In this document: piece by piece, positions 1,889 to 36,672 of the stretch
How positions within the stretch are numbered: position 1 is the stretch's first letter
How the letters are laid out: every line of letters begins with the position of its first letter
Assembly (NCBI GenBank): GCA_004376265.1
Contig: SOKL01000329.1
Location: 1 to 37,662 of the forward strand
Reading direction: 5' to 3'
Source of the DNA: Candidatus Thorarchaeota archaeon
GTDB taxonomy: Archaea > Asgardarchaeota > Thorarchaeia > Thorarchaeales > Thorarchaeaceae
Length of the DNA: 37,662 nt
Notes under the pieces: model-generated
The model's database searches: none
Told to the model about the DNA's origin: nothing
The model's input: only the letters and a program-made list of their open reading frames with translations
Program-made: the position numbers and the translations under genes

Positions 1889-2985
1889 CGCCGATGACTA
1901 TCATTTCCAATTGGTATGCGTGATGCAAGGTGGGACACCACACTCTCAAGTCGTTTCTCTATTTCATGATTGTTGGCTATAAATGTGCATATCTCTGAGG
2001 TGTTACCTACTAGCCCTGATAATATTTGAGACATCGTCAACCAATCCACTGTGAGAGGGGTTTCAAGGTCAAGTACTGTGAGTTCTTTACCAGACAGAAC
2101 ACGCGCTTTAGGGAAAGTACTGGCTTGAGCATTTAGTAATCTTGAAGTTATTGACTCATTTGAATTCACATCTTTGACACACACCATGAGTTTCTGGTCT
2201 AGGCCAATATCATTGACATTCACATATGGAAGGGTGATAATTTTTCTCAATCGAGCTAGTCTACGCCGTAGGGTTCTACTAGACAATGACTCAAGTCCTA
2301 ATTCACTGATTTTCATTTTCACCTCAGATGCAGTTGCATGATAGTTTGATTCGATTGCCGCAGCAATGACTAGATCGACAATTGGTGCACTGCTTGTTTC
2401 ACTCTGTTTTACGCTATCTACATCTGGAAGGACTCTGACATAGTCCTTTGCTACACCAAAAGATGCCTCTAATCTAAAGTCATGACTAAAACCCCATGAC
2501 GATCCATCAAATAATCCCAGATTCATATGATGTGAAATATTGGAAGCAACCTCCACATTCAAACCTAGAGAATATGGACGTTTTCTGAATCGTTCAATTT
2601 GGCTCTTAAACCAAGCATACTGGTTTTTCATTGGTAAGATTGCTTCAAAATAGATTCGAGAATCCATTGTAGAAGACATGACTGATTTCGTAAGTCGTGT
2701 GACAAATGGATTGGTATGCAGCCAGCGAGAAAATTTGACAAGGACCTCTGAGTTCTCACTATCTTGAGCCCACCCAAAAATTAGCACGAGGCCTAATTTC
2801 CCATAATCAAGATTGCTGCGGATACCAACATGAAAATCTGTTTGGAGTTTGTGCCAGATTTGATTAATTGCAGATCTTGTTACATCCAGTTCATCTGCAA
2901 TCTTAGCTTGACGAAAAGATGGATCGATGACCAATCGTCGTAAAAGCCGTAATTCACCTGGTCCCAATGACCGCAAAGTTATCAC
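1885..2985 (-). CDS. Tandem-HTH, Lrp/AsnC-like regulator (first gene of operon)
   Basis: The protein has 366 residues and starts at GTG 2985. It opens directly with a winged HTH (residues about 8-48: LGPGELRLLRRLVIDPSFRQ, then an AKIADELDVTRSAINQIWHK recognition region). An alpha-beta domain and a second HTH follow (about 205-250, ATASEVKMKISELGLESLSS and an RRRLARLRK recognition helix). It is a shorter relative of the coupled downstream gene, lacking the long helical N-terminus. An imperfect palindrome lies just upstream of the start and could be an autoregulatory site. Role as transcription factor is inferred from fold; target genes are unknown. Confidence 0.7.
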   Translation of the reverse strand: MITLRSLGPGELRLLRRLVIDPSFRQAKIADELDVTRSAINQIWHKLQTDFHVGIRSNLDYGKLGLVLIFGWAQDSENSEVLVKFSRWLHTNPFVTRLTKSVMSSTMDSRIYFEAILPMKNQYAWFKSQIERFRKRPYSLGLNVEVASNISHHMNLGLFDGSSWGFSHDFRLEASFGVAKDYVRVLPDVDSVKQSETSSAPIVDLVIAAAIESNYHATASEVKMKISELGLESLSSRTLRRRLARLRKIITLPYVNVNDIGLDQKLMVCVKDVNSNESITSRLLNAQASTFPKARVLSGKELTVLDLETPLTVDWLTMSQILSGLVGNTSEICTFIANNHEIEKRLESVVSHLASRIPIGNDSHRR

Positions 2986-2994
2986 CTATATCTG

Positions 2995-3007
2995 CCCAAT
3001 ATCTGGG
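2995..3007. promoter_or_regulatory. Short palindrome upstream of regulator operon
   Basis: CCCA-ATATC-TGGG sits 10 bp upstream of the GTG start of the minus-strand regulator operon, inside a double ATCTG direct repeat. Lrp-type proteins often bind their own promoters, so autoregulation is a reasonable inference, but arms of 4 bp are weak evidence. Confidence 0.3.
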
Positions 3008-3161
3008 TAATATGGCCGGATGTTTAGTTATGAATTTGGTGGCTCGTCTCGTTTGTCAGAACTGAAAAGTGACCGAGTCAATTCTCGCGGATGAATTCAC
3101 TAGATTTGAATGCGGGGTCATTAGAACGCCATCTAATGCACCCGTTGAATCCAGCGCGCCC

Positions 3162-3170
3162 TTATTATAA
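3162..3170 (+). promoter_or_regulatory. TATA-like box for the 3.2-3.7 kb structured RNA region
   Basis: TTATTATAA lies about 27-30 bp before the first base-paired segment of the candidate RNA (CACACTGT at 3197), which is the normal archaeal TATA-to-start distance. No convincing BRE is visible: the upstream bases are GC-rich. The stretch 3008-3160 shows no supported gene. Confidence 0.4.
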
Positions 3171-3192
3171 CACGTTGAGTTCATTCACATGG

Positions 3193-3715
3193 TTTCACAC
3201 TGTAGAATGAGCTCAAAGGTTAGGTTAATCCTACGCCCAGTTAGTCGTGGGAAGACACCTGTATCGAGAGAGATATAGTTGTCCGACCGCATGCTGAAGG
3301 GAGCAAATCTACACAGTGTGCCCCATTCAACCTTCCAGCAAACGAAGGAGGTGAAAGCGATTAAAACAGACCGGATGAGAACTCTTTACGAGAGCATGAC
3401 TAGAAATCGTGCTGCATTGGAGTTGCTATCAATCGGTGTCGTACACGGTATCTCGACCGTTGTGCAGCCGCCCTGCGAAGATCCGACCCCATTCTGATTC
3501 ACTACATGTAAAGTAGTGGACAGAAGGTCAATCGGACTTGACTGCAAGGTGAGCTTCAGCGTCGACATACTTCGTTGCTGGACATGGTTGGTAGGGGATT
3601 CTTACAACAACTGCAGTGTGAGCTTCTAGAGAGAGAAGCTAACCGATGAAACCAAACCCCCAAAGGTTTGGAGCAGATCTGGAGGAATCCAGAATGCCAA
3701 CCTTTCGCTTGGAGT
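3193..3715 (+). ncRNA. Candidate large structured RNA (about 520 nt) or highly structured leader
   Basis: The region has no convincing ORF but an unusual run of short-loop perfect hairpins. CTGTATC/GATATAG has loop GAGAGA (3259-3278, one G-U pair). CACTAC/GTAGTG is at 3500-3518. GTCAA/TTGAC is at 3527-3542. AGCTTCT/AGAAGCT is at 3621-3640. CCAAACC/GGTTTGG is at 3652-3671. TCTGGA/TCCAGA closes a GGAA (GNRA) tetraloop at 3678-3693. CCAA/TTGG is at 3697-3712. A distant pair CACACTGT (3197-3204) with ACAGTGTG (3313-3320) closes the first domain. A TATA-like box sits at the right distance upstream, and SD-led small ORFs follow. I could not match it to RNase P, SRP or other RNAs I know. Strand is inferred from the promoter and downstream genes. 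Confidence 0.5.
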
Positions 3716-3757
3716 AGAGAACAAAAAATGAAACAAATTACGGAGGAGAAAAACACA

Positions 3758-3799
3758 ATGGATCCTAGACCCGGAGACGAATGTCCTGAACCCTGGTAA
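3758..3799 (+). CDS. MicroORF, 13 residues, MDPRPGDECPEPW
   Basis: The ATG at 3758 has a strong Shine-Dalgarno GGAGGAG at 3742-3748 (spacing 9), and the frame ends in TAA after CCTGAACCCTGG. An in-frame ATG at 3728 would give 23 residues but has no good SD at proper spacing. The peptide closely resembles the 15-residue microORF at 22325-22372, which also has T-M near the start and ends in PEPW. The next gene (3848) has a nearly identical SD context, suggesting one mRNA. Function is unknown; a small signalling, precursor or structural peptide are all possible. Confidence 0.5.
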   Translation: MDPRPGDECPEPW

Positions 3800-3847
3800 T
3801 AATAGAATAAAACGTGCGGTAAACCCGCTACGGAGGAATAACAAAAA

Positions 3848-4099
3848 ATGATACGAACACAAAAAATCGAACCAATATTCGAAGACTTCACACAGCCCGA
3901 TAATGGGCGTGAGGTGGACCCTTTCACCGATTCAGAAACCGTCAGACTCGTTGCAATTAACATCGAGCTATCTGTCAGAAATCTGATCAGTGCAAATGCC
4001 CCACCAGAAAGTCTCGTGGTCACAGCTGACATCGGCACACACAAACTCATGGCTATCCCAACAGCGGATGGCGAAGTTAAGGTGCTAGTGTTCCAGTAG
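3848..4099 (+). CDS. Unknown 83-residue protein after structured RNA and microORF
   Basis: The ATG start has an excellent SD (GGAGGAA 3832-3838, spacing 9). The 83-residue product is soluble and acidic in its first third, with no Cys. It has an alternating hydrophobic C-terminal part (SLVVTADIGTHKLMAIPTAD, then VKVLVF) that looks like paired beta strands, preceded by a helix around residues 32-52. I recognise no family. It lies in an otherwise noncoding stretch, 48 bp after the PEPW microORF, so it is probably the last gene of that unit. A minus-strand frame over the same DNA lacks an SD and looks like a shadow. Confidence 0.6.
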   Translation: MIRTQKIEPIFEDFTQPDNGREVDPFTDSETVRLVAINIELSVRNLISANAPPESLVVTADIGTHKLMAIPTADGEVKVLVFQ

Positions 4100-4162
4100 T
4101 GACCGTGGTGAAGGCAATGGACCCGGAGTATTCCCGGGGGACTAAAGGTTACCCCGGAGTAG

Positions 4163-4189
4163 TACAGTACGTACAGTATGTACAGTATG
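4163..4189. repeat. Three tandem 9-bp repeats upstream of MFS promoter
   Basis: TACAGTACG, TACAGTATG, TACAGTATG follow head to tail and are followed by a partial fourth copy (TATGG). They end 18 bp before a TATA box (4208), where an activator or repressor could bind. Just upstream the 9-mer CCCGGAGTA occurs twice (about 4130 and 4154). Confidence 0.55.
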
Positions 4190-4207
4190 TATGGAAAGAA
4201 GAGGTGT

Positions 4208-4215
4208 CTATATAG
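4208..4215 (+). promoter_or_regulatory. TATA box of MFS gene
   Basis: CTATATAG predicts a transcription start near 4238 and a leader of about 100 nt before the GTG at 4336. Flanked by the 9-bp repeats upstream and an inverted repeat downstream. Confidence 0.5.
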
Positions 4216-4256
4216 CCTGAACCAGTATTTCAGCTTGTTCTCAAGCCGTTCTCATA

Positions 4257-4286
4257 TTGTCCGTAGACTCAATACTTTCCGGACAA
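4257..4286. promoter_or_regulatory. Inverted repeat, possible operator, in MFS leader
   Basis: TTGTCCG (4257-4263) and CGGACAA (4280-4286) are perfect 7-bp arms separated by 16 bp. The site is downstream of the predicted start, as expected for a repressor roadblock or a leader hairpin. Confidence 0.45.
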
Positions 4287-4335
4287 ACTGTGTATCGAAC
4301 GGCAGCACATAAGAACCAGTTTGGAGATACAAAAG

Positions 4336-5754
4336 GTGAAGTTCATCCAGCAGTCTGATGAAAGGAGTGAAGTCGACTTGGATGACGAGCCTGATCTACT
4401 AGCTGGTCAAAAACCTATTGAAAGTGATGACACCATCAAAGAACGCCCTGGATTGAGGGAATCAATCAGAGCTGTGTTCTCATGGCGAAATTACTCTGTT
4501 TATCTATCAACTGCGTGGACTTTCAGTGCTTTTAGCTACTTGGGTTTATTCTTTAATCTCTATTTTCTCGAGTTATATCCCGGAGGGTACCTGTTACTCG
4601 GAGCTGTGTTATCATTAACAAGTTTGGTCGCTTCGATTTCACGTCTGGGCGGAGGGTATGTTGGAGATGTTGTAAACAGAAAACACCTCTCTGTTGTAGC
4701 AATGTTCATGATGGCTATTTACAATCTAATTCTAGGTATCTCTATTGAATTCACATGGATTTTGATTGCTCTCATGTTTTTATCCACCATGGAGATTTTC
4801 AAAGGTGGATCATCTGCTTTTATCATGGATAATATTCCCAAGGAACACAGCGGCCTTGGGCTTTCACTCTTTCAAATTGGAAGAGTGCTGGGGATTTTCA
4901 CACTTGCTGCGTTTGTGATATTAACACCCATTCTTGGGTTTGGACAAAGTCTTCGCCTGATGTTTCTAATCGGCGGATTATTTCTAATCATCACATCAAT
5001 TGCTAGAGCTATTCTTCTCAAGGGCAAAGCCCCAGAACTCAAACGAGAGAGTATTTCCTTACCAAGAGCGTTCTATCAAGACAACAAAAGAGCAGTAAGC
5101 TTGTTGTTGAAGATGGTACCGGGTCTTTTAGCTGTTGTTGTTATTGATTCTGTCAGTGATGCACTATTCCGATTTGGATCCTACATTTACATCTATGAAG
5201 AGGTCGGAATTGAGATACCTGGAATAATCATCATGAGTATCGTAACAATAGTAATTTCAGTTCCCCTGTTGCTGGGAGCCGGTCGATTGTCAGACCGGTA
5301 CGATGTAAAGAAATTGGCATTAATAGTATACAGCGTTGTACCGATATCCGCGATTCTGCTCTTTGTATCGCCAATGTTCCCCTACTGGGCTCCGATATCA
5401 ATAATCAACGGAGCTGAATCAATGATGGAAGGACTTGGGGCTATCTTCTCTACCCCATTTCTAGCTATTGTTATGAAGTCTGTAAACGATACGTTGTGGT
5501 TACTGCTGCTACTCATAATAATTAAGAAGAATCTTCCAAGACAGGACACTTCCAAGATTCTTAGTGTCTTCTGGTTCATTATTTGGATGTGTGCTTCCAT
5601 TGGTCCCTATTTGGGTGGTTTCTTTTTCCAATACTTCTACTCAGGAGACCTCTTCTTGGTAATACTTGTGCTCAACATACTCCTATTGGGATGGATTTCG
5701 AAACAAGGTTTAATCACAGAGCATATTACTGCAGAAACTGTAAATAATGGATGA
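4336..5754 (+). CDS. Major facilitator superfamily transporter
   Basis: This is an integral membrane transporter of about 472 residues with about 12 hydrophobic segments and a charged cytoplasmic N-terminus of about 50 residues. The MFS loop motif appears in both halves: GGYVGDVVNRK after TM2-3 and GAGRLSDRYDVK in the second half. That supports the two six-helix bundles of the family. I choose GTG 4336 because GGAGAT (4323-4328) is a fair SD at the right distance; a TTG at 4321 is in frame but has no SD. Substrate cannot be told from sequence. It stands alone, with an elaborate upstream region (tandem repeats, TATA box, inverted repeat), so it is probably regulated by a specific ligand-sensing factor. 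Confidence 0.85.
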   Translation: MKFIQQSDERSEVDLDDEPDLLAGQKPIESDDTIKERPGLRESIRAVFSWRNYSVYLSTAWTFSAFSYLGLFFNLYFLELYPGGYLLLGAVLSLTSLVASISRLGGGYVGDVVNRKHLSVVAMFMMAIYNLILGISIEFTWILIALMFLSTMEIFKGGSSAFIMDNIPKEHSGLGLSLFQIGRVLGIFTLAAFVILTPILGFGQSLRLMFLIGGLFLIITSIARAILLKGKAPELKRESISLPRAFYQDNKRAVSLLLKMVPGLLAVVVIDSVSDALFRFGSYIYIYEEVGIEIPGIIIMSIVTIVISVPLLLGAGRLSDRYDVKKLALIVYSVVPISAILLFVSPMFPYWAPISIINGAESMMEGLGAIFSTPFLAIVMKSVNDTLWLLLLLIIIKKNLPRQDTSKILSVFWFIIWMCASIGPYLGGFFFQYFYSGDLFLVILVLNILLLGWISKQGLITEHITAETVNNG

Positions 5755-20484: not shown

Positions 20485-22263
20485 TTATCTACGCCTTCTA
20501 GACACATGGGGGCTACGTGAGGAGCTAGATGTTTCAACGGCCAGATTTTCACTTTCTTCTCTAAGTTGATTCAGCCAGGTGTTAATCTCATCCGTTGGGG
20601 ATTGCCACCCTTGTCTTTCAACATTCCACATACTTTCAGGATATTTCCAATGACCCCAGATTCCACTACTCAGAGGCGATACGGTTACGGGCCATCTAAG
20701 TGAACGAAGTGTATCCATCAAACGAGTGGACCCACCAGCAGGAAGATCAGTCATCATGAGAAGATTTCGATTTTCTTCATAGCGTAGGAATGCTCGTGGG
20801 AGTTCTCTGGACCACGTGTCCAGAATATCAGCAGATTTTCTATCAGTAGCTCTGATTGCAACTCTTTCTACTAGACCAATATTTAGAACATTCCAAATAC
20901 TACGAATCAAACCATCTGACCTGAGTTTCTTCATACGGGTTGAGAGATTTGTTTGTCCTATTGATAGTTCATTTCTCAGTGCTCTGGTAGAAGTGATTCC
21001 TTTCTGTATTAGCGCAAGGATACTCATGTCAAGAGAGTCAAGATATACATCTGAAGTCTTAGCGGGTACGTCAATGCGTTCAACAAGTTGGTCAAGAGAT
21101 TCTTTTCGAATTCTATGACCCCAACCTCTCATAGCTACCCATGGGATTTCCCATCGACAGATTTTTGGATTATAATGGTAGAATGAGTTTGATATTCCTA
21201 CTGAATATGTTTCAGCAACATCGACAGCAATTCCATTGCTATTGAGAATTGAGGACATTTGATCCAATGAGCGGGTGTTCTCAATATTGTCCGGAACTGC
21301 AAGTCGTGCTATTATTTGCCAAGGACCATTGAGAATCGACTGCACATCGTATAAAAATGGGCAATGCGTAACGAGTTTTGATGGATCGCTCCATGAAGGG
21401 CCAGCGAGAAGAACATAGAAGGTTCGTATTCCGATTCTTGAAAATGGGGCTGTTGCGAAGTTCATCAAAACATATTTGCGCTTGAGACGGTTAATTCTTG
21501 TACAGACCCAAGACTCACTCAATCGAGAGACCTCAGCTACCTGACGATATGTTGCAGTCGGGTCTTTCAAAAGAGCATCTACAATCTTCACATCTGCTTG
21601 ACCAAGCTCGACTACAATATTCTGAGTTCTTAGATTCATATACTCAACATACTCATCAAAATCTAATGATTTTCCATAACGAGCCATACACACAAACTCA
21701 TGAACGATGGAGTCCAATTCGCTTGAACCACCAAGAGCGTATATCCAGTTCATTAAATTGTAAGAATTGTATTGTAGGTTAGTTCGAACACGTTGTGTAG
21801 GGATAGTTTGCCATTCCTGCACCCATTTGATCCTATCAGGCCTCTTCAACATCTGTCGAGCAAATTCAGATGCAAGATCACGTTTCGCCTCAGAACAAAG
21901 CTCTGGGGGAAAGGCATTGAACAGACACTCTCTATAAACTACACCAGCAAGCGGAATCGTTTCTTGAAGAGTGTCAGGATGTATCTTGAGCTCTTTCCCA
22001 AAAGCATTGTAGTTCCCCCCTATTCTTTCGATATTGTGTGCATTGATGACTTTCACTGATTTAGGAATAGGGGATACCTCAAGTCCAAAACGCTGAGTTA
22101 TCATTTTAGAACAATCAAGCCATAGTTTTGAAACCCGAGAATAGATATCAGTCATCAAGTGTATCGGGTGAATTTCGGACTTAAGAGCTTCGTGCTTGCC
22201 AGCATGACGTGAAACTATAACTGCTCTAGTCGATAAATCCGTTACTTGTGTTTTAGGAAGCAA
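20485..22263 (-). CDS. Very large tandem-HTH, Lrp-like regulator
   Basis: The protein has 592 residues. Residues 1-210 are helical and unlike known domains. A first HTH lies at about 222-262 (TYRQVAEVSRLSESWVCTRI plus NRLKRKYVL), then an alpha-beta sensor-like part. A second HTH lies at about 412-455 (TSTRALRNELSIGQTNLSTR, MKKLRSDGLIRSIW), followed by a second alpha-beta part. The tail is Ser/Arg-rich, ending RRRR. The order helical region, HTH, sensor, HTH, sensor matches the 495-residue protein at 401-1888, so the two are probably paralogues. Start ATG 22263. It is divergent from the PEPW microORF at 22325. Confidence 0.72.
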   Translation of the reverse strand: MLPKTQVTDLSTRAVIVSRHAGKHEALKSEIHPIHLMTDIYSRVSKLWLDCSKMITQRFGLEVSPIPKSVKVINAHNIERIGGNYNAFGKELKIHPDTLQETIPLAGVVYRECLFNAFPPELCSEAKRDLASEFARQMLKRPDRIKWVQEWQTIPTQRVRTNLQYNSYNLMNWIYALGGSSELDSIVHEFVCMARYGKSLDFDEYVEYMNLRTQNIVVELGQADVKIVDALLKDPTATYRQVAEVSRLSESWVCTRINRLKRKYVLMNFATAPFSRIGIRTFYVLLAGPSWSDPSKLVTHCPFLYDVQSILNGPWQIIARLAVPDNIENTRSLDQMSSILNSNGIAVDVAETYSVGISNSFYHYNPKICRWEIPWVAMRGWGHRIRKESLDQLVERIDVPAKTSDVYLDSLDMSILALIQKGITSTRALRNELSIGQTNLSTRMKKLRSDGLIRSIWNVLNIGLVERVAIRATDRKSADILDTWSRELPRAFLRYEENRNLLMMTDLPAGGSTRLMDTLRSLRWPVTVSPLSSGIWGHWKYPESMWNVERQGWQSPTDEINTWLNQLREESENLAVETSSSSRSPHVSRRRR

Positions 22264-22324: not shown

Positions 22325-22372
22325 ATGATAACAATGTTCGGACCTCCAGAAAACCCACCTGAACCATGGTAA
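22325..22372 (+). CDS. MicroORF, 15 residues, MITMFGPPENPPEPW
   Basis: It is divergent from the large tandem-HTH regulator. A TATA-like TTGTATAG (22299-22306) predicts a start at about 22328, so it would be leaderless or nearly so from ATG 22325 or 22334; no SD is present. It matches the microORF at 3758-3799 (T-M, Pro-rich middle, PEPW end, TAA), although codons differ in the middle. A palindrome follows 30 bp later. Expression is unproven; the similarity between two distant loci is the main argument. Confidence 0.42.
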   Translation: MITMFGPPENPPEPW

Positions 22373-30157: not shown

Positions 30158-31372
30158 CTATTCGAAGAGAGTGACTTCGACCGAGTCTCCTTCCTCAATG
30201 ACATCAAGATTGATCGGGAGGATTATGTATCCATCAGCAGTAGCCATACTTGTGATGGCACCAGAATGTTTGTAGACTGGATGAGCAATTCCGTTTCTTA
30301 TTCTGACGGTGAGAAATTGCATTCTTCCTGAAGCGGAAACTAATCGCTTACTGATTTTAGCTAATACGGTTTTTTGGTGTGCAGGGGGTTGCCGCCCCAT
30401 CTGTCTCACAGCTGGTACAAGGAAAATGTATGCATTGCTGAGACAGGATGTAGGATATCCTGGCATTCCAAAGACCGGTGTGCTTTGTGCGACACCGTAG
30501 AGTGTGGGTTTTCCTGGTTTTATCTGCACTCCGTGAAATAGGACTTCACCCACATCACCAAGTATTCCAGCTAGAAGATCTTTCTCCCCCACTGAGCTCC
30601 CTCCAGATAGCACAACCATGTCATAGTGTAGAGCTTTTTCTATTGTATCCTTTAGGGCAGAGTAATCATCACCAACGATTCCAAAGCGGTCCACTTGAGC
30701 TCCATGAGCCTGGAGTATGGCCTCGAGAGTGAAAGAATTGACGTCATAGATTTGACCTGGATTGAGATTCTCACCTGGTGCAACAATTTCTTCACCTGTC
30801 GGAATAACAGCTATTCTAGGTCTACCAAAGACGTCGACATGAGTCCAACCAAGCGCAGCCAAAGTGCCTATTTTAGCTGGTGTTAACCAAGCTCCTGTTG
30901 TAAGAACTAAATCGCCCTCCACAATGTCCTCACCCTTCTTCGAAACATTGGCTCCGGGATACACAGGTCGAGTCACTAAAATCCTATCTTCATGTCGTTC
31001 AGTATATTCCACCATGACTACTGAATTGGCACCACTTGGCATGGGGGATCCTGTAGCAATCTGGATACAATGACCTCGACTTACTTCTTGGTCTGATACT
31101 TCACCAGCGTGAATAACTCCATCAAGCTCTAATTTGATTTCACTCTCATCAGCACCAAAGGTGTCCTCTGCAATAACAGCATAGCCATCCATCGCAGACC
31201 TCTCGAAGGGAGGTACTGACCTATTCGCCTTGACATCTGAAGCAAGCACTCTTCCAGAGGCCCCAGCTATTGAAATATTCTCAATTCTATCAATCGGAAT
31301 ACAGGTTTTCAAAATGGTTTCCTTTGCTTTTTCATGAGAAACCAGAAGTTTGAACGGTTCCATCTCTTTCAT
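30158..31372 (-). CDS. moeA: MoeA, molybdopterin molybdenum/tungsten transferase
   Basis: Inserts molybdate or tungstate into adenylated molybdopterin. About 404 residues. Signatures: VPPFERSAMDGYA, IPTGEE, LSGGSSVGEKD (ligand loop), then FGMPGYPTSCLSNAYIFLVP and a C-terminal beta domain. The ATG at 31372 overlaps the TGA of moaB (ATGA), so it is the last gene of a coupled operon moaA-moaEC-moaB-moeA. With TupABC across the operator, tungsten may be the main metal. Confidence 0.93.
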   Translation of the reverse strand: MKEMEPFKLLVSHEKAKETILKTCIPIDRIENISIAGASGRVLASDVKANRSVPPFERSAMDGYAVIAEDTFGADESEIKLELDGVIHAGEVSDQEVSRGHCIQIATGSPMPSGANSVVMVEYTERHEDRILVTRPVYPGANVSKKGEDIVEGDLVLTTGAWLTPAKIGTLAALGWTHVDVFGRPRIAVIPTGEEIVAPGENLNPGQIYDVNSFTLEAILQAHGAQVDRFGIVGDDYSALKDTIEKALHYDMVVLSGGSSVGEKDLLAGILGDVGEVLFHGVQIKPGKPTLYGVAQSTPVFGMPGYPTSCLSNAYIFLVPAVRQMGRQPPAHQKTVLAKISKRLVSASGRMQFLTVRIRNGIAHPVYKHSGAITSMATADGYIILPINLDVIEEGDSVEVTLFE

Positions 31373-31869
31373 CGGTCGACCTCCCATAGCAAATGCCCAA
31401 GGCTAGGCAGTATAATTTCCTTGAGTGCGGTCAACATAGCATTCTTTGATCCTGGTAAACAGAATATCACTGTGTTCCCAGCCAACCCGGCTACAGCTCT
31501 GCTATAGATTCCGGCAAGACCGATTTCTTCATGGCTCAGTTTTCTGAAATGTTCTCCAAAGCCATCTAGTTTCTTATCAAGGAGTGGCTCTACGGTATTT
31601 GTAGTTATGTCCTTCCTACCAATACCTGTACCCCCACTGGTCAGAATTACCCTGATAGAAGGGTCGTTGATATAACCAGTGATGGCTGTCCTCACCTCTC
31701 CTTCATCATTCTTCACGATATCGTATGCCTTAGTGGTATGCCCTTCTGAAGCAACTATTTCCATGGCAATCTTCCCAGACCTGTCAGTTTCCTTTGTTCT
31801 TGTATCAATGACAACTAAAACGGCAAAGGTCGTTTCTAGCGTTTGATCTCTTCTATGTTCATCACTCAT
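31369..31869 (-). CDS. moaB: MoaB/Mog-like molybdopterin adenylyltransferase
   Basis: Activates molybdopterin with ATP before metal insertion; archaeal MoaB does this job. 166 residues with TSGGTGIGRKDITTNTV (pterin/nucleotide loop) and FCLPGSKNAM near the C-terminus. Its ATG shares one base with the stop of the moaE-moaC fusion (TAATG), and its stop overlaps the moeA start, so four genes are linked by overlaps. Confidence 0.92.
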   Translation of the reverse strand: MSDEHRRDQTLETTFAVLVVIDTRTKETDRSGKIAMEIVASEGHTTKAYDIVKNDEGEVRTAITGYINDPSIRVILTSGGTGIGRKDITTNTVEPLLDKKLDGFGEHFRKLSHEEIGLAGIYSRAVAGLAGNTVIFCLPGSKNAMLTALKEIILPSLGHLLWEVDR

Positions 31870-32732
31870 TACAATTCGACCTTCTCTTTTCGTACAACCC
31901 GAACGTTTTCCAAGCGAGCTATTGGATACTGTCCCTCGGAGTCCTTCTCAAGATATTTTGTCATGTCCCAGATGGTGAGCAGTGAAGTTGTGACACCGAC
32001 AAGAGCCTCCATCTCAACTCCTGTAGAGTATGTGGCTATTACCTCGCAGGCTCCTCGTATTCTATCTTCAAGAAACTCAAAGGATACCCCAACTGAGGAC
32101 AACGGAATTTGATGGCATAGGGGGATTAGCTCGGATGTCTTCTTGGATGCAACGATTCCAGCTACCTCAGAAACCGATAGCACATTACCCTTCTTTGTTG
32201 TACCAAGACGTACTGCTTCAACAGTTTCAGGATGAAGAATCAGCTCTCCTTCAGCCCGGGAGGTTCTGAAGCTGAAAGGCTTCTTGGATATGTCCACCAT
32301 CCTGACCTCAGACCGTTCTTCCGCTTCCATCTCACCGACCCAATGACTTCCTCCCTCGAAATACTCCTGTTTCCAAATGGGGACTATATCCTTTAAACGC
32401 TCAATTGCATATCTGCAGCTTTTGAACGCTTGATCTCTATGTGCAGCGCCTGCCGCAATTATTACAATGTTTTGTCCAATCTCAACGCGACCCTTTCGAT
32501 GAATAATCGAAACATCAGTTGCTCCGAACTTCCGAATCGCATCGTCTCGAATTTCCTTAAGCTTCTCTACAGCCAAAGAGTTATCCGCTTCGAACTCTAA
32601 CCTCTCCACAGTCTTTCCGCGGCTCATGTTTCTAACTGTGCCAAGAAAAATGACTAGAGCTCCCATCTCAGGTGTTCGTGTTTTGGAAACGACTTCATCA
32701 ATAGAGAAATCTTCCTCAATTACTTCTATCAA
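31869..32732 (-). CDS. moaE-moaC: MoaE-MoaC fusion protein
   Basis: Two pathway steps in one chain of about 287 residues. The first half is MoaE, the catalytic subunit of molybdopterin synthase (FLGTVRNMSRGKTVERLEFE, then GRVEIGQNIVIIAAGAAHRD and the Lys in PIWKQEYFEGGSHWVG). The second half is MoaC, which makes cyclic pyranopterin phosphate (MVDISKKPFSFRTSRAEGEL, then LIPLCHQIPLSSV and MEALVGVT). MoaC acts before MoaE. The start is probably TTG 32732 or GTG 32741 inside the end of moaA, with an AAGGGTG SD; the longer open frame upstream overlaps moaA too far to be real. No moaD is seen nearby. Confidence 0.9.
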   Translation of the reverse strand: MIEVIEEDFSIDEVVSKTRTPEMGALVIFLGTVRNMSRGKTVERLEFEADNSLAVEKLKEIRDDAIRKFGATDVSIIHRKGRVEIGQNIVIIAAGAAHRDQAFKSCRYAIERLKDIVPIWKQEYFEGGSHWVGEMEAEERSEVRMVDISKKPFSFRTSRAEGELILHPETVEAVRLGTTKKGNVLSVSEVAGIVASKKTSELIPLCHQIPLSSVGVSFEFLEDRIRGACEVIATYSTGVEMEALVGVTTSLLTIWDMTKYLEKDSEGQYPIARLENVRVVRKEKVEL

Positions 32733-33720
32733 TCTCTTCACCCTTTTGCCAATATGGTTCACGTTGTGCAATTGCTGTAGTGTACGCTTGGAGAAGATCG
32801 CTATCGTTTCTGTATTCTGAAAGGTAAGACCGGACATGCACCAAATTATCCGATCGGTATAGACAAGGCTTGAGCATACCATCAGTTGTGACCCGTAGTC
32901 TGGTACAGGATCTGCAAAATTCAGCGTTATGTATAGGTTTCACAACCTCCACTCTTGCAATTCCACTCTGAGTGGGTACGGAATACTGTCGTCGGCCATG
33001 TAGTGCCCTTTGTACAATCTTGATAGCAGTATTATTGAACTGTTCCTCCAATTCTTTCAACATGAAACGGTGATTTTCTAGATTGCCTTCAGGATCAATC
33101 GGCACATCTTGGACCTCTATTAGCTGGAGAATTGTGTCTGTTGATGCAGCAAATTCCATCATCGACTGTATCTCGAGTTCATTGGATTCACGTAGAATCG
33201 TCATGTTGATCTTTACCGGTGATAAGCCAACCTCTATTGCTCTCTCTATTCCCTTTTTCACAATCAACAGGTTCTTGGAACCAGTTATCGCCTCAAACGT
33301 TGTTTGATCAAGTGAATGAAGACTAACATTGACTCTGTCTAGTCCTGCAGCCTTAAGATCTGCAGCCATCTGATGAAGATGAGAACCATTTGTTGTAAGT
33401 GAGAGATCTTCGACAATTGGGGATAGCCTGCTTATGATTTCCAACAGGTCTGAACGGAGGAGAGGTTCACCCCCGGTAAGCTTGACTCTTGTGACTCCAT
33501 GAGCAGTAGCCATCCGTACGAGTCGTTCAATCTCTACCGGGGTCATCTCTGAACCTGTTGGACTTTCACCTTCAGCATGACAGAAAAAGCATGAATAATT
33601 ACACCTCTGTGTGAGTGATATTCTCAAATAGTTCACAGGGCGACCAAATGTATCTGTCAATGGCTCATGAATGCAAGATAATTCTCGCTTTCGGTCAAAG
33701 TCAGTGTTAGGTTCAACCAT
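32716..33720 (-). CDS. moaA: MoaA, radical-SAM GTP 3',8-cyclase
   Basis: First enzyme of molybdopterin synthesis. The radical SAM cluster is C-N-Y-S-C-F-F-C (CX3CX2C) near residues 40-47 and the C-terminal second cluster is FCRSCTRLRVTTDGMLKPCL. KLTGGEPLLR is the SAM-binding GGE. A minus-strand TATA (33751-33756) predicts transcription from about 33727. That excludes GTG 33732 and supports ATG 33720 (334 residues). First gene of the moa operon, divergent from tupABC. Confidence 0.94.
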   Translation of the reverse strand: MVEPNTDFDRKRELSCIHEPLTDTFGRPVNYLRISLTQRCNYSCFFCHAEGESPTGSEMTPVEIERLVRMATAHGVTRVKLTGGEPLLRSDLLEIISRLSPIVEDLSLTTNGSHLHQMAADLKAAGLDRVNVSLHSLDQTTFEAITGSKNLLIVKKGIERAIEVGLSPVKINMTILRESNELEIQSMMEFAASTDTILQLIEVQDVPIDPEGNLENHRFMLKELEEQFNNTAIKIVQRALHGRRQYSVPTQSGIARVEVVKPIHNAEFCRSCTRLRVTTDGMLKPCLYRSDNLVHVRSYLSEYRNDSDLLQAYTTAIAQREPYWQKGEEIDRSN

Positions 33721-33771
33721 CGGTGTTCTCACTCTACGCTAGATAGTATCTATAACTGTTATGTTCTGTCA

Positions 33772-33804
33772 TGCATATCGAATCGATATGCACGGGTATG
33801 CATA
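33772..33804. promoter_or_regulatory. Palindromic operator between moaA and tupABC
   Basis: Arms TGCATATCGA (33772-33781) and TCGATATGCA (33783-33792) are a perfect inverted repeat around a single A. A second small palindrome, TATGCATA, follows at 33797-33804. The element lies about 16 bp upstream of the moaA TATA (33751-33756) and just before a plus-strand TATA-like CTTAATTT (33808-33815). It is the natural place for a tungstate/molybdate-responsive factor; no such regulator gene is in the window. Confidence 0.7.
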
Positions 33805-33902
33805 ACACTTAATTTGTTTGTGAGAACCACATCCGAGCACACCATCAAGGCCATTTCTATCAATCTGATGAATCTAAAGAAAGGTGTAACAAGGGTGTTT
33901 TG

Positions 33903-34949
33903 ATGAAACGAGAAAGGATGCTAGGGTTTTTATTTCTGATGCTGGTTCTAATTGGTACAGGATCGGGATTTGTCTGGAATTATCTTCAATTCCATAACAA
34001 GGAAACACTAGTCATATCAACGACAACAAGCCTATTTGACACAGGCCTTCTCGATGAAATCAAGATAGTATATGAAGAAACACATCAAAATGTGCTATTG
34101 GCTTTCATCTCTGCTGGAACAGGAATTGCAATCACTCATGCCATGAACGGGGATGCTGACGCAATCCTGGTACATTCGCCTTCGCAAGAAAAGTTGTTTA
34201 TGGAACAGAACTTTGGTGTAGATAGGAGAATATTCTCGTACAATTTCTTTGTGATTATAGGACCTAGCGATGATCCTGCAGGAATAATGGGATTGAACGT
34301 GACTAATGCTTTGAGTCAAATCTATGTTTATGGTCGCAGTCTCAATACAAGTCTATGGATTTCACGCGACGATAGGTCTGGAACCAATACAAAAGAAATA
34401 GCTCTTTGGACTCAAGCAGGAATGGATTATGATCTTATCAAAGAAGAACCGTGGTTTCTTTCATCCGGGACTGGAATGGGCTCAACACTCCAAATAGCTG
34501 GTGAACTTGAACTCTATACCTTAGCTGATATTGGAACTTATCTGAATTATTACTCAAAAGGTCTAACTACACTCCAAGAGCTAGTAAGTTCGGACGCGAC
34601 ACTCATCAACGTCTATAGTGCGATTATAGTGAATGCTACTCAGGTGGAGGGAGTGAAATACGAGCTTGCGTCGGATTTCATTCAATGGCTAATTGACTCA
34701 GATGCTCAAGAGCTAATTGGGATCTATGGTCAGGCAGACTATGGCCAGTCTATATTCATGCCTGCAACATCTGTTTTGCAGACACAGTCACCTTCAGATA
34801 TTTTCAACTGGATCAGAGATAACGCGTTCTTTGATTTCAACGGTACACTCTATGAATGTCCTCCACCATGGAGGTCAGATGGTTATACTCCCATTATACC
34901 TGTCTTGATGTTAAAAATGGAACAAATCGTGAGAGAGATTGAGAGATGA
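33903..34949 (+). CDS. tupA: Tungstate-binding protein, TupA-like
   Basis: The product is 348 residues and starts with a hydrophobic N-terminal signal/anchor (residues about 7-27). Oxyanion-binding motifs of TupA are present: STTTSLFDTG (39-48), SAGTGIAI, then RDDRSGTNTKEIALW and SSGTGMGSTLQIA, followed by YTLADIGTYL. These differ from ModA/WtpA and favour tungstate. No lipobox is visible, so it is probably held by its N-terminal helix on the outer face. ATG 33903 overlaps TTG 33900; stop overlaps tupB (ATGA). Confidence 0.9.
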   Translation: MKRERMLGFLFLMLVLIGTGSGFVWNYLQFHNKETLVISTTTSLFDTGLLDEIKIVYEETHQNVLLAFISAGTGIAITHAMNGDADAILVHSPSQEKLFMEQNFGVDRRIFSYNFFVIIGPSDDPAGIMGLNVTNALSQIYVYGRSLNTSLWISRDDRSGTNTKEIALWTQAGMDYDLIKEEPWFLSSGTGMGSTLQIAGELELYTLADIGTYLNYYSKGLTTLQELVSSDATLINVYSAIIVNATQVEGVKYELASDFIQWLIDSDAQELIGIYGQADYGQSIFMPATSVLQTQSPSDIFNWIRDNAFFDFNGTLYECPPPWRSDGYTPIIPVLMLKMEQIVREIER

Positions 34950-35608
34950 CGTTGTGGACTGACCTGTTAGAGATAACTCTGCGAAGCATATTCGTATCTG
35001 GCGTAGCTGCATTGCTGGCTGCACTTATTGGAATACCTGTAGGAGTTTTGATCGGGCTAAGAAGGTTCAGGGGGCGGTCTCAAGTGAAGGGTGTGTTCAA
35101 TGGTCTAATGGCAATGCCCACTGTCGCGCTGGGGCTTGTACTCTACCTAGTTTTTTCCAATGCAGGACCTTTGGGATTTCTTCAAGTGTTGTACTCACCG
35201 TTTGCAATCATCATAGGACAGGCCATTCTTGTTTTTCCATTATTAGTAAGCATCTCTAGTGAAACAGTGGAAACCATCGATCCCAGTATACGTGATCTTG
35301 CACTCACTCTGGGTGCTGATGAACGGGAAGCCTCCGTATCGGTTTTGCGAGAATCACTTGGGGGTATTGTTCTAGCAGTATCAGCTTCTTTCAGTCGAGC
35401 AATATCAGAACTTGGCATTGCGTTGATGTTGGGCGGCAACATTGAGGGACTGACAAGAGTGCTCACATCTTCAATTGCCCTCGAAACAACAAGAGGTGAG
35501 ATCATACTTGGACTTGGATTAACTGTAATCCTATTGTCTTTGATGATAATTTTCAATATCCTTCTCAGGATGGCTGAGAAACGGTTGAGGTGGTGGCTTT
35601 GGGAATAA
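34946..35608 (+). CDS. tupB: Tungstate ABC transporter permease, TupB-like
   Basis: This membrane permease has 220 residues with about five or six helices. The ABC-permease EAA loop is ALTLGADEREASVSVLRESL, which contacts the ATPase. Conserved pieces MAMPTVALGLVLYLVFSNAG and RAISELGIALMLGGNIEG match the TupB family. It starts on the overlapping ATGA with tupA and ends 19 bp inside tupC, so the three are co-translated. Confidence 0.92.
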   Translation: MTLWTDLLEITLRSIFVSGVAALLAALIGIPVGVLIGLRRFRGRSQVKGVFNGLMAMPTVALGLVLYLVFSNAGPLGFLQVLYSPFAIIIGQAILVFPLLVSISSETVETIDPSIRDLALTLGADEREASVSVLRESLGGIVLAVSASFSRAISELGIALMLGGNIEGLTRVLTSSIALETTRGEIILGLGLTVILLSLMIIFNILLRMAEKRLRWWLWE

Positions 35609-36672
35609 TTACAACAGAGGATGTCCATGTGCATCTTGATACTTCACACGCTCTTAGAGGGCTCAATATCGATGTGAATCAGAGCGAAATCCTTTCAATT
35701 GTTGGTCCCAATGGCTCTGGAAAGACGACGCTGCTAAAGTTATTGGGCGGCCTCTTAAGACCTACATCCGGCGAGCTCACGTTCAAAGGCCAGGTCATAA
35801 CTGATGAGAACAGAGAAACGCTTCGAAAGAAAGCAACCGTGGTCTTTCAGAAACCAGTTCATTTTGGAACTTCAGTTTTCAAGAACATAGCATACGGACT
35901 CCGAATAAGAGGGATGGATGAAGATGAGATTACCGAGCGCGTAGAAGAAGTTCTATCATTTGTAGACCTCGATGATTTTGGTGAGAAACTTGCTCGCAAT
36001 CTTTCTGGGGGGGAGCAAAGGAGAGTGTCGATAGCCCGAGCAATTGTGCTTAGACCGGAGATTCTTCTCCTTGATGAACCTACGGCAGATCTTGATATTG
36101 ATAGTACTAGAATTGTTGAAGATGTCCTCAAGAAGTTCAACAGGGAACACAATACTACCATTATAGTATCAACTCATAATCTATTCCAAGCCGAATCTGT
36201 TGCTCATAGAACAGCAATAATCGACAGAGGACAAATTCAGATGATTGGAAGAGCGAGTGCAATGCTTGGGTTCGAACTTGATAAAATGAAAGATGAAGGA
36301 CTTGTGCTCAACACGTTCAGAGGAGATGCGACTTGGCTCAACAAGAGCACTCATTGGAGAGGACTTCTGAGAATCGAACTTGCAGATGGTGTATTTGTAG
36401 AAGCAATAGGAACACAAGAGGGGGATGTGACCATTTGGATACCCCCGCAAGACGTGATTATTTCGAAAAGGACAATTCTATCCAGTGCGAGAAATACTCT
36501 CAAGGGAAGAGTATTGAAAGTTGAAGAAGTCAACTCAACTACGTTGCTCACAGTAGACGTTGGAGTTGAGATTGTGGCTCAAATAACTAGGAATTCATTG
36601 AAAGACTTCGACATCAAGATTGGAGATTCTGTCTATGTCACATTCAAAGCTTCTTCAGTCTCGGTCTATTAG
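35590..36672 (+). CDS. tupC: Tungstate ABC transporter ATPase, TupC/WtpC-like with C-terminal TOBE domain
   Basis: Walker A GPNGSGKTT, Q-loop FQKPVHFGTS, signature LSGGEQRRVSIARA, Walker B ILLLDEPTADLD and switch His in VSTHN are complete. Residues about 240-360 form a regulatory extension ending in a TOBE/Mop-like domain (ARNTLKGRVLKVEEV, then GDSVYVTFKASSVSVY). It could bind tungstate or molybdate and inhibit transport, as in ModC. Plain TupC proteins often lack this. Start GTG 35590, with GTG 35593 also possible. Confidence 0.92.
   Translation: MVALGIITTEDVHVHLDTSHALRGLNIDVNQSEILSIVGPNGSGKTTLLKLLGGLLRPTSGELTFKGQVITDENRETLRKKATVVFQKPVHFGTSVFKNIAYGLRIRGMDEDEITERVEEVLSFVDLDDFGEKLARNLSGGEQRRVSIARAIVLRPEILLLDEPTADLDIDSTRIVEDVLKKFNREHNTTIIVSTHNLFQAESVAHRTAIIDRGQIQMIGRASAMLGFELDKMKDEGLVLNTFRGDATWLNKSTHWRGLLRIELADGVFVEAIGTQEGDVTIWIPPQDVIISKRTILSSARNTLKGRVLKVEEVNSTTLLTVDVGVEIVAQITRNSLKDFDIKIGDSVYVTFKASSVSVY

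Follow-up and report, generated by a model that had tools for sequence, protein, structure and literature searches.

Organization of the locus

The window, meaning the whole 37,662-nucleotide stretch of DNA that was analysed, comes from a Candidatus Thorarchaeota archaeon, and the interval under study lies at 3193-3715 on its forward strand. Comparison with relatives indicates that this interval forms the 5′ portion of a polycistronic mRNA conserved among them, which carries a small protein gene (sORF1), a micro-ORF, a further reading frame (ORF3) and, downstream, a gene for an MFS transporter (4321-5754, forward strand). Two divergently oriented Lrp/AsnC-like helix-turn-helix (HTH) regulators are encoded on the reverse strand at 401-1888 and 1885-2985. 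These genes are syntenic in relatives, in which the order regulator-regulator-sORF1-ORF3-MFS-HhH/GPD is conserved, and every ORF of the main locus is preceded by a Shine-Dalgarno sequence. The genomes compared are metagenome-assembled, with an estimated 8% contamination for the window's own genome; the locus nonetheless recurs across many independent assemblies. It was not found outside the Thorarchaeaceae.

A TATA-like promoter box, placed at 3162 by an earlier note on this DNA, is present as TTATTATA (3162-3169, forward strand) and is conserved in the genus alignments, where it keeps much the same spacing to the first strand of the stem described below. Just 3′ of the presumed transcript start is a perfect palindrome, TGAGCTCA (3208-3215), which is invariant in the genus alignment and could be an operator or an RNA contact. 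Elsewhere, the window contains a molybdenum-cofactor gene cluster (30158-36672) with MoeA, MoCF_biosynth, MoaE/MoaC and radical-SAM MoaA-like genes, followed by genes for a substrate-binding protein and an ABC ATPase.

A small protein gene with a probable non-AUG start

The earlier note saw no convincing gene in the interval, yet the most conserved part, 3347-3497, consists of a Shine-Dalgarno sequence and an ORF of 45 codons on which purifying selection is strong. The Shine-Dalgarno sequence GGAGGTG (3347-3353, forward strand) is present in all 32 loci listed, and sORF1 itself (3360-3497, forward strand) begins with ATT and encodes IKTDRMRTLYESMTRNRAALELLSIGVVHGISTVVQPPCEDPTPF, followed by a stop codon. 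The strongest and widest matches in a DNA search of relatives cover 3335-3497, and a protein of 45-48 residues is read from one frame in 19 relatives at 75-92% identity; across the Thorarchaeaceae the identity is 73-91%. The first alignment has no variation in 21 of its 45 columns. The earlier note had named a conserved, synonymously biased protein frame as evidence against its own proposal of a structured RNA, and such a frame occupies the centre: within the genus, mean pS is 0.43 and mean pN 0.039 (pN/pS 0.09). Over 26 loci pS is 0.64 and pN 0.11, variability at the three codon positions is 0.11/0.06/0.33, and codons 1-12 alone have a pS of 0.65 versus a pN of 0.16. Because the frame is open and conserved, synonymous changes are in excess and a ribosome-binding site precedes it, the comparative evidence identifies sORF1 as a protein-coding gene under purifying selection.

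Translation of sORF1 is inferred to begin at an ATH codon. In 32 of the 32 loci listed (two of them partial), GGAGGTG is followed 6-7 bases on by ATT, ATC or ATA and never by ATG. Two other codons were considered and rejected. The GTG at 3351 is out of frame or precedes an in-frame stop codon in several relatives, and a GTG start overlapping the Shine-Dalgarno sequence is excluded in five loci because the frame is closed by a stop codon 1-2 codons before the ATH. The ATG at 3375 is replaced by an Ile or Val codon in other relatives. Among the distant members of the family, four have ATC or ATA and another (L169) has ATC with ATG as the very next codon; the exception is L170, where the start is an ATG further upstream. 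sORF1 is therefore a candidate archaeal gene whose start is conserved as AUU, AUC or AUA.

The AlphaFold2 model of the protein (pLDDT 72) predicts a helix over residues 2-32 and a disordered tail. Searches against Pfam, NCBIfam and PDB sequences gave no match. sORF1 was found confidently only in the Thorarchaeaceae, matches elsewhere in the phylum having E values of 0.02-0.1, and all named matches in the genome collection are Candidatus Thorarchaeota. A phage or viral origin was rejected, with no phage match and no relative among viral contigs. In three genomes the assembly breaks within or beside sORF1 (two contigs in each of two genomes and one in the third), as if at a branch point among co-occurring strains.

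RNA structure of the interval

The excess of short hairpins reported earlier is real: 3193-3715 contains six perfect short-loop matches with stems of 6 bp or more, some of them nested versions of a single stem, where mononucleotide shuffles give an expectation of 0.69 (p ~0.003). The forward strand of 3185-3725 also folds more stably (-191.7 kcal/mol) than dinucleotide shuffles (-152.4 ± 6.2 kcal/mol), with a z of -6.35; z for the reverse strand is -2.48. By part, the mean z is -1.56 in the leader, -1.62 in spacer 1 and -2.46 in spacer 2, with no excess folding in sORF1 (-0.22) or in the MFS control (-0.12). The local hairpins of the earlier note were rejected as a conserved element, as 41.6% of their cells are paired versus 31-40% when the structure is slid along the alignment. 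No Rfam 15 covariance model matches the window above its curated threshold, and at a permissive threshold 2950-4350 gave only chance-level snoRNA matches.

The long-range helix described in the earlier note does exist and is longer than the 8 bp it was given. In the consensus structure of a 12-species alignment, it is a stem of three parts, P1, P2a and P2, that encloses sORF1 (all coordinates on the forward strand). The 5′ strand of P1 (3190-3206) lies at the presumed transcript start, and the 5′ strands of P2a (3321-3328) and P2 (3335-3342) end just 5′ of the Shine-Dalgarno sequence. The 3′ strands follow in the order P2 (3574-3581), P2a (3589-3596) and P1 (3610-3628). Across the 12 species 95.4% of cells keep the pairing versus 30-44% when the stem is slid, a comparison that favours the stem since it was taken from the consensus of the same alignment. 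The covariation score is 0.127 versus 0.094 for shuffled alignments (reached in 0 of 500), with four pairs changed on both sides. Compensatory change is thus present, in a modest amount, because many pairs of the stem never vary and the stem was drawn from its own alignment's consensus. Of the large structured RNA that had been proposed, the conserved long-range stem stands, but it closes around a protein-coding gene.

Leader and spacer may also form a duplex in 11 loci of other genera, at a place analogous to P2/P2a and with different sequences. Most of these loci are non-significant when taken singly, and the combined Fisher p against shuffles is 7e-4. In the consensus fold the Shine-Dalgarno sequence of sORF1 (3347-3352) may additionally pair with the gene's own Pro-Pro codons (3467-3472), which are also subject to coding constraint.

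The micro-ORF and ORF3

Downstream of the stem, a micro-ORF of 13 codons (3758-3799, forward strand) with a Shine-Dalgarno sequence and an ATG start encodes MDPRPGDECPEPW, followed by a stop codon. The ending Pro-(Trp/Phe/Tyr)-stop is present in every locus examined. All 26 loci of one set have a Shine-Dalgarno sequence, an ATG start, 11-14 codons and a Pro-Trp or Pro-Phe end, and all 11 of a further set end in Pro-Trp, Pro-Phe or Pro-Tyr, one of them with a GTG start; three of these 11 are from a genus without a detected sORF1. The length ranges from 11 to 15 codons, the N-terminus is variable, and in two loci the micro-ORF is duplicated.

Between the micro-ORF stop codon and ORF3 is a short hairpin, GTGCGG...CCGCTAC (3814-3835, forward strand). 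Folding of this spacer has a mean z of -2.46, with 15 of 26 loci below -2, and many relatives have equivalent hairpins of different sequence. ORF3 (3848-4099, forward strand) encodes 83 amino acids with a predicted helix-strand-strand-strand order. It is single-copy in 41 Thorarchaeaceae genomes, including 13 of the 13 with good completeness, and is restricted to this family, being absent elsewhere in the phylum sample. ORF3 has no match in Pfam or NCBIfam. The top structure matches of its model (pLDDT 83) are mostly Roadblock-like, the best at an E value of 0.1, so that the predicted resemblance to the C-terminal half of Roadblock/LC7 is without significance; of that half the protein has just the helix and three strands, and no match falls below E 0.1.

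A dispersed family of Pro-Trp micropeptides beside related regulators

As judged from sequence comparison, the micro-ORF peptide belongs to a dispersed family of 10-15-residue peptides with a Pro-Trp terminus, which occurs in three contexts (the main locus, A4-type loci and H3-type loci), each adjoining members of one Lrp/AsnC-like superfamily. The pattern Pro-Glu-Pro-Trp-stop has matches in 21 of 47 family genomes, and 20 other places with this pattern are mostly short ORFs of 12-15 codons; two of the first matches have no start codon in the short frame and were left out of the counts. Some of the micro-ORFs contain tandem cores (for example, ...DNPFTPPPEPWTTDNPFTPPPEPW), and many are followed, ~150-300 bases further downstream, by a member of one paralogous family of ~665 amino acids. 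An upstream Pro-Trp micro-ORF is present in 19 of 31 A4-type loci and a divergent one in 11 of 30 H3-type loci (10 of 11 among the closest), compared with one such micro-ORF in ~200 kb of background strand. A stricter H3-type pattern has matches in 10 family genomes and in one other genome of the phylum. The scan of regulator loci found no such micro-ORF in 12 of the 31 A4-type loci or in most of the distant H3-type loci, nor in the stretch scanned beside the A4-type regulator of the window's own genome.

The window holds a second member of the family, MFGPPENPPEPW followed by a stop codon (22334-22372, forward strand). It is divergent from the related regulator H3 (20485-22263, reverse strand), which is homologous to the regulators at 401-2985, and no gene follows it on its strand. 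No Shine-Dalgarno sequence was seen before this gene, which is possibly leaderless.

Tandem identical cores separated by short spacers occur in five loci and differ at silent sites only. The two micro-ORFs of L037 likewise encode the same protein with silent differences, and those of L042 differ by one residue. Because the tandem cores are identical as protein while their silent sites differ, selection appears to act on the peptide sequence itself. The gene next to the H3-linked micropeptides is convergent in four loci, and several others have unrelated downstream genes, which argues that these peptides are not leaders of one particular gene. Folding of the A4-type upstream regions gave the order micro-ORF, hairpin with U-rich tract, regulator gene, as expected whether the micro-ORF belongs to an attenuator or is a short gene of its own that ends in a terminator.

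Profile comparisons place the regulator groups in one superfamily. The H1-H3, H2-H3 and H1-H2 comparisons have probabilities of 97-98%, and A4-H3 has 89% (E 2e-6). H3 matches Lrp/AsnC structures over 219-344 (E 8.7e-8) and H1 does so at E 0.001, in both cases to solved structures with an HTH and a ligand-binding domain. A4 has no match in Pfam or the PDB; it is probably a distant relative, with its homology to Lrp resting mainly on the one comparison with H3. Unlike solved members of the Lrp/AsnC group, the regulators described here are far longer and have more than one HTH-like region.

Possible functions of the peptides

The reading that ranks first, with a probability approaching an even chance, is that the micropeptides act in trans and are paired with the adjoining regulators. 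They would be functional products in their own right, serving the neighbouring multi-domain Lrp/AsnC-like proteins as ligands or co-regulators. Such a pair of peptide and regulator would possibly be a cell-cell signal, with the MFS protein as its putative exporter. With the closing stem and the weak AUU-type start, translation of sORF1 would stay low and independent of the downstream cistrons. A peptide gene adjacent to a regulator is found in the main, A4 and H3 contexts alike, with a presumed cognate relation. No recognizable secretion signal was found in the micropeptides, and no processing enzyme or receptor for them was identified. In the bacterial pairs Rgg/SHP and PlcR/PapR, a tiny ORF also adjoins the gene for its regulator, and the peptide is variable with a conserved end. 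The present regulators differ from these in being Lrp/AsnC-like rather than RRNPP proteins, and the candidate peptides are 10-15 amino acids long without an evident secretion signal. The fuller proposal that adjacent Lrp/AsnC-like regulators sense the Pro-Trp micropeptides, and that one copy belongs to a core single-copy operon with a stem-enclosed, non-AUG small protein, is put forward tentatively.

The main rival, somewhat less probable than the reading in trans, is that the short frames act in cis. The micropeptides would be leader peptides, with a ribosome pausing at Pro-x-Pro-Trp/Phe-stop so that the next hairpin refolds and controls the downstream ORF3-MFS genes or the A4 regulator; jointly with this, sORF1 would work like the uORF of AZIN1, as an AUU-initiated frame on which ribosomes pause. 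The conserved residues adjoin the stop codon in every case, and a hairpin is found 3′ of the micro-ORF at the main locus and, with a U-tract, before the A4-type regulators, all consistent with such control. The mRNA of AZIN1 (antizyme inhibitor) carries a short, AUU-initiated uORF with a C-terminal, Pro-rich and Trp-containing PPW pause motif (PMC9082881, PMC11058473). The likeness in start codon and Pro-rich terminal motif is no more than a resemblance; the AZIN1 uORF depends on eukaryotic scanning whereas sORF1 is archaeal, led by a Shine-Dalgarno sequence, enclosed by an RNA stem and ends in P-x-P-F. In bacterial leader-peptide attenuators and Mg2+-transporter uORFs such as mgtQ, Pro and acidic residues can slow or destabilize ribosomes, and a short ORF is likewise followed by a hairpin and then the downstream gene (PMC8092293). 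The reading in trans is favoured over this one because the tandem cores, including residues beyond the Pro-Trp end, are kept identical through silent changes only, no one gene regularly follows the micropeptides beside H3, and no alternative antiterminator pairing was identified. Neither attenuators nor uORFs such as mgtQ are known to have a Pro-Trp ending conserved at the stop codon, tandem cores or stand-alone copies.

If either of these two readings is true, Asgard archaea would have a new type of gene control based on peptides, of which no earlier description was found in the open-access papers searched. The mRNA is predicted to encode a string of tiny proteins that had so far gone unnoticed, and the micropeptide family gives a concrete, testable list of 10-15-codon genes, too short for searches that set a minimum ORF length.

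A third explanation, in which sORF1 and the micropeptides are ordinary small subunits of a structural or enzymatic kind, or else antimicrobial-like peptides that the MFS protein exports, and in which the regulators control their expression, is unlikely. The long helix predicted for sORF1 and the adjacent regulators and transporter suit this explanation, but the same C-terminal ending recurs in three contexts, each time next to members of one regulator superfamily, and in the two contexts other than the main locus no transporter is a constant neighbour. A large structured non-coding RNA with incidental ORFs is very improbable: the interval does contain a conserved RNA fold, with the strongly negative folding z and the conserved long-range stem noted above, but its identification as a non-coding RNA is contradicted by the strong synonymous bias and codon periodicity of sORF1. 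The Shine-Dalgarno sequence before each ORF, the lack of conservation of the local hairpins and the spread of sORF1 over a wider range of genera than the RNA sequence in its details also speak against it.
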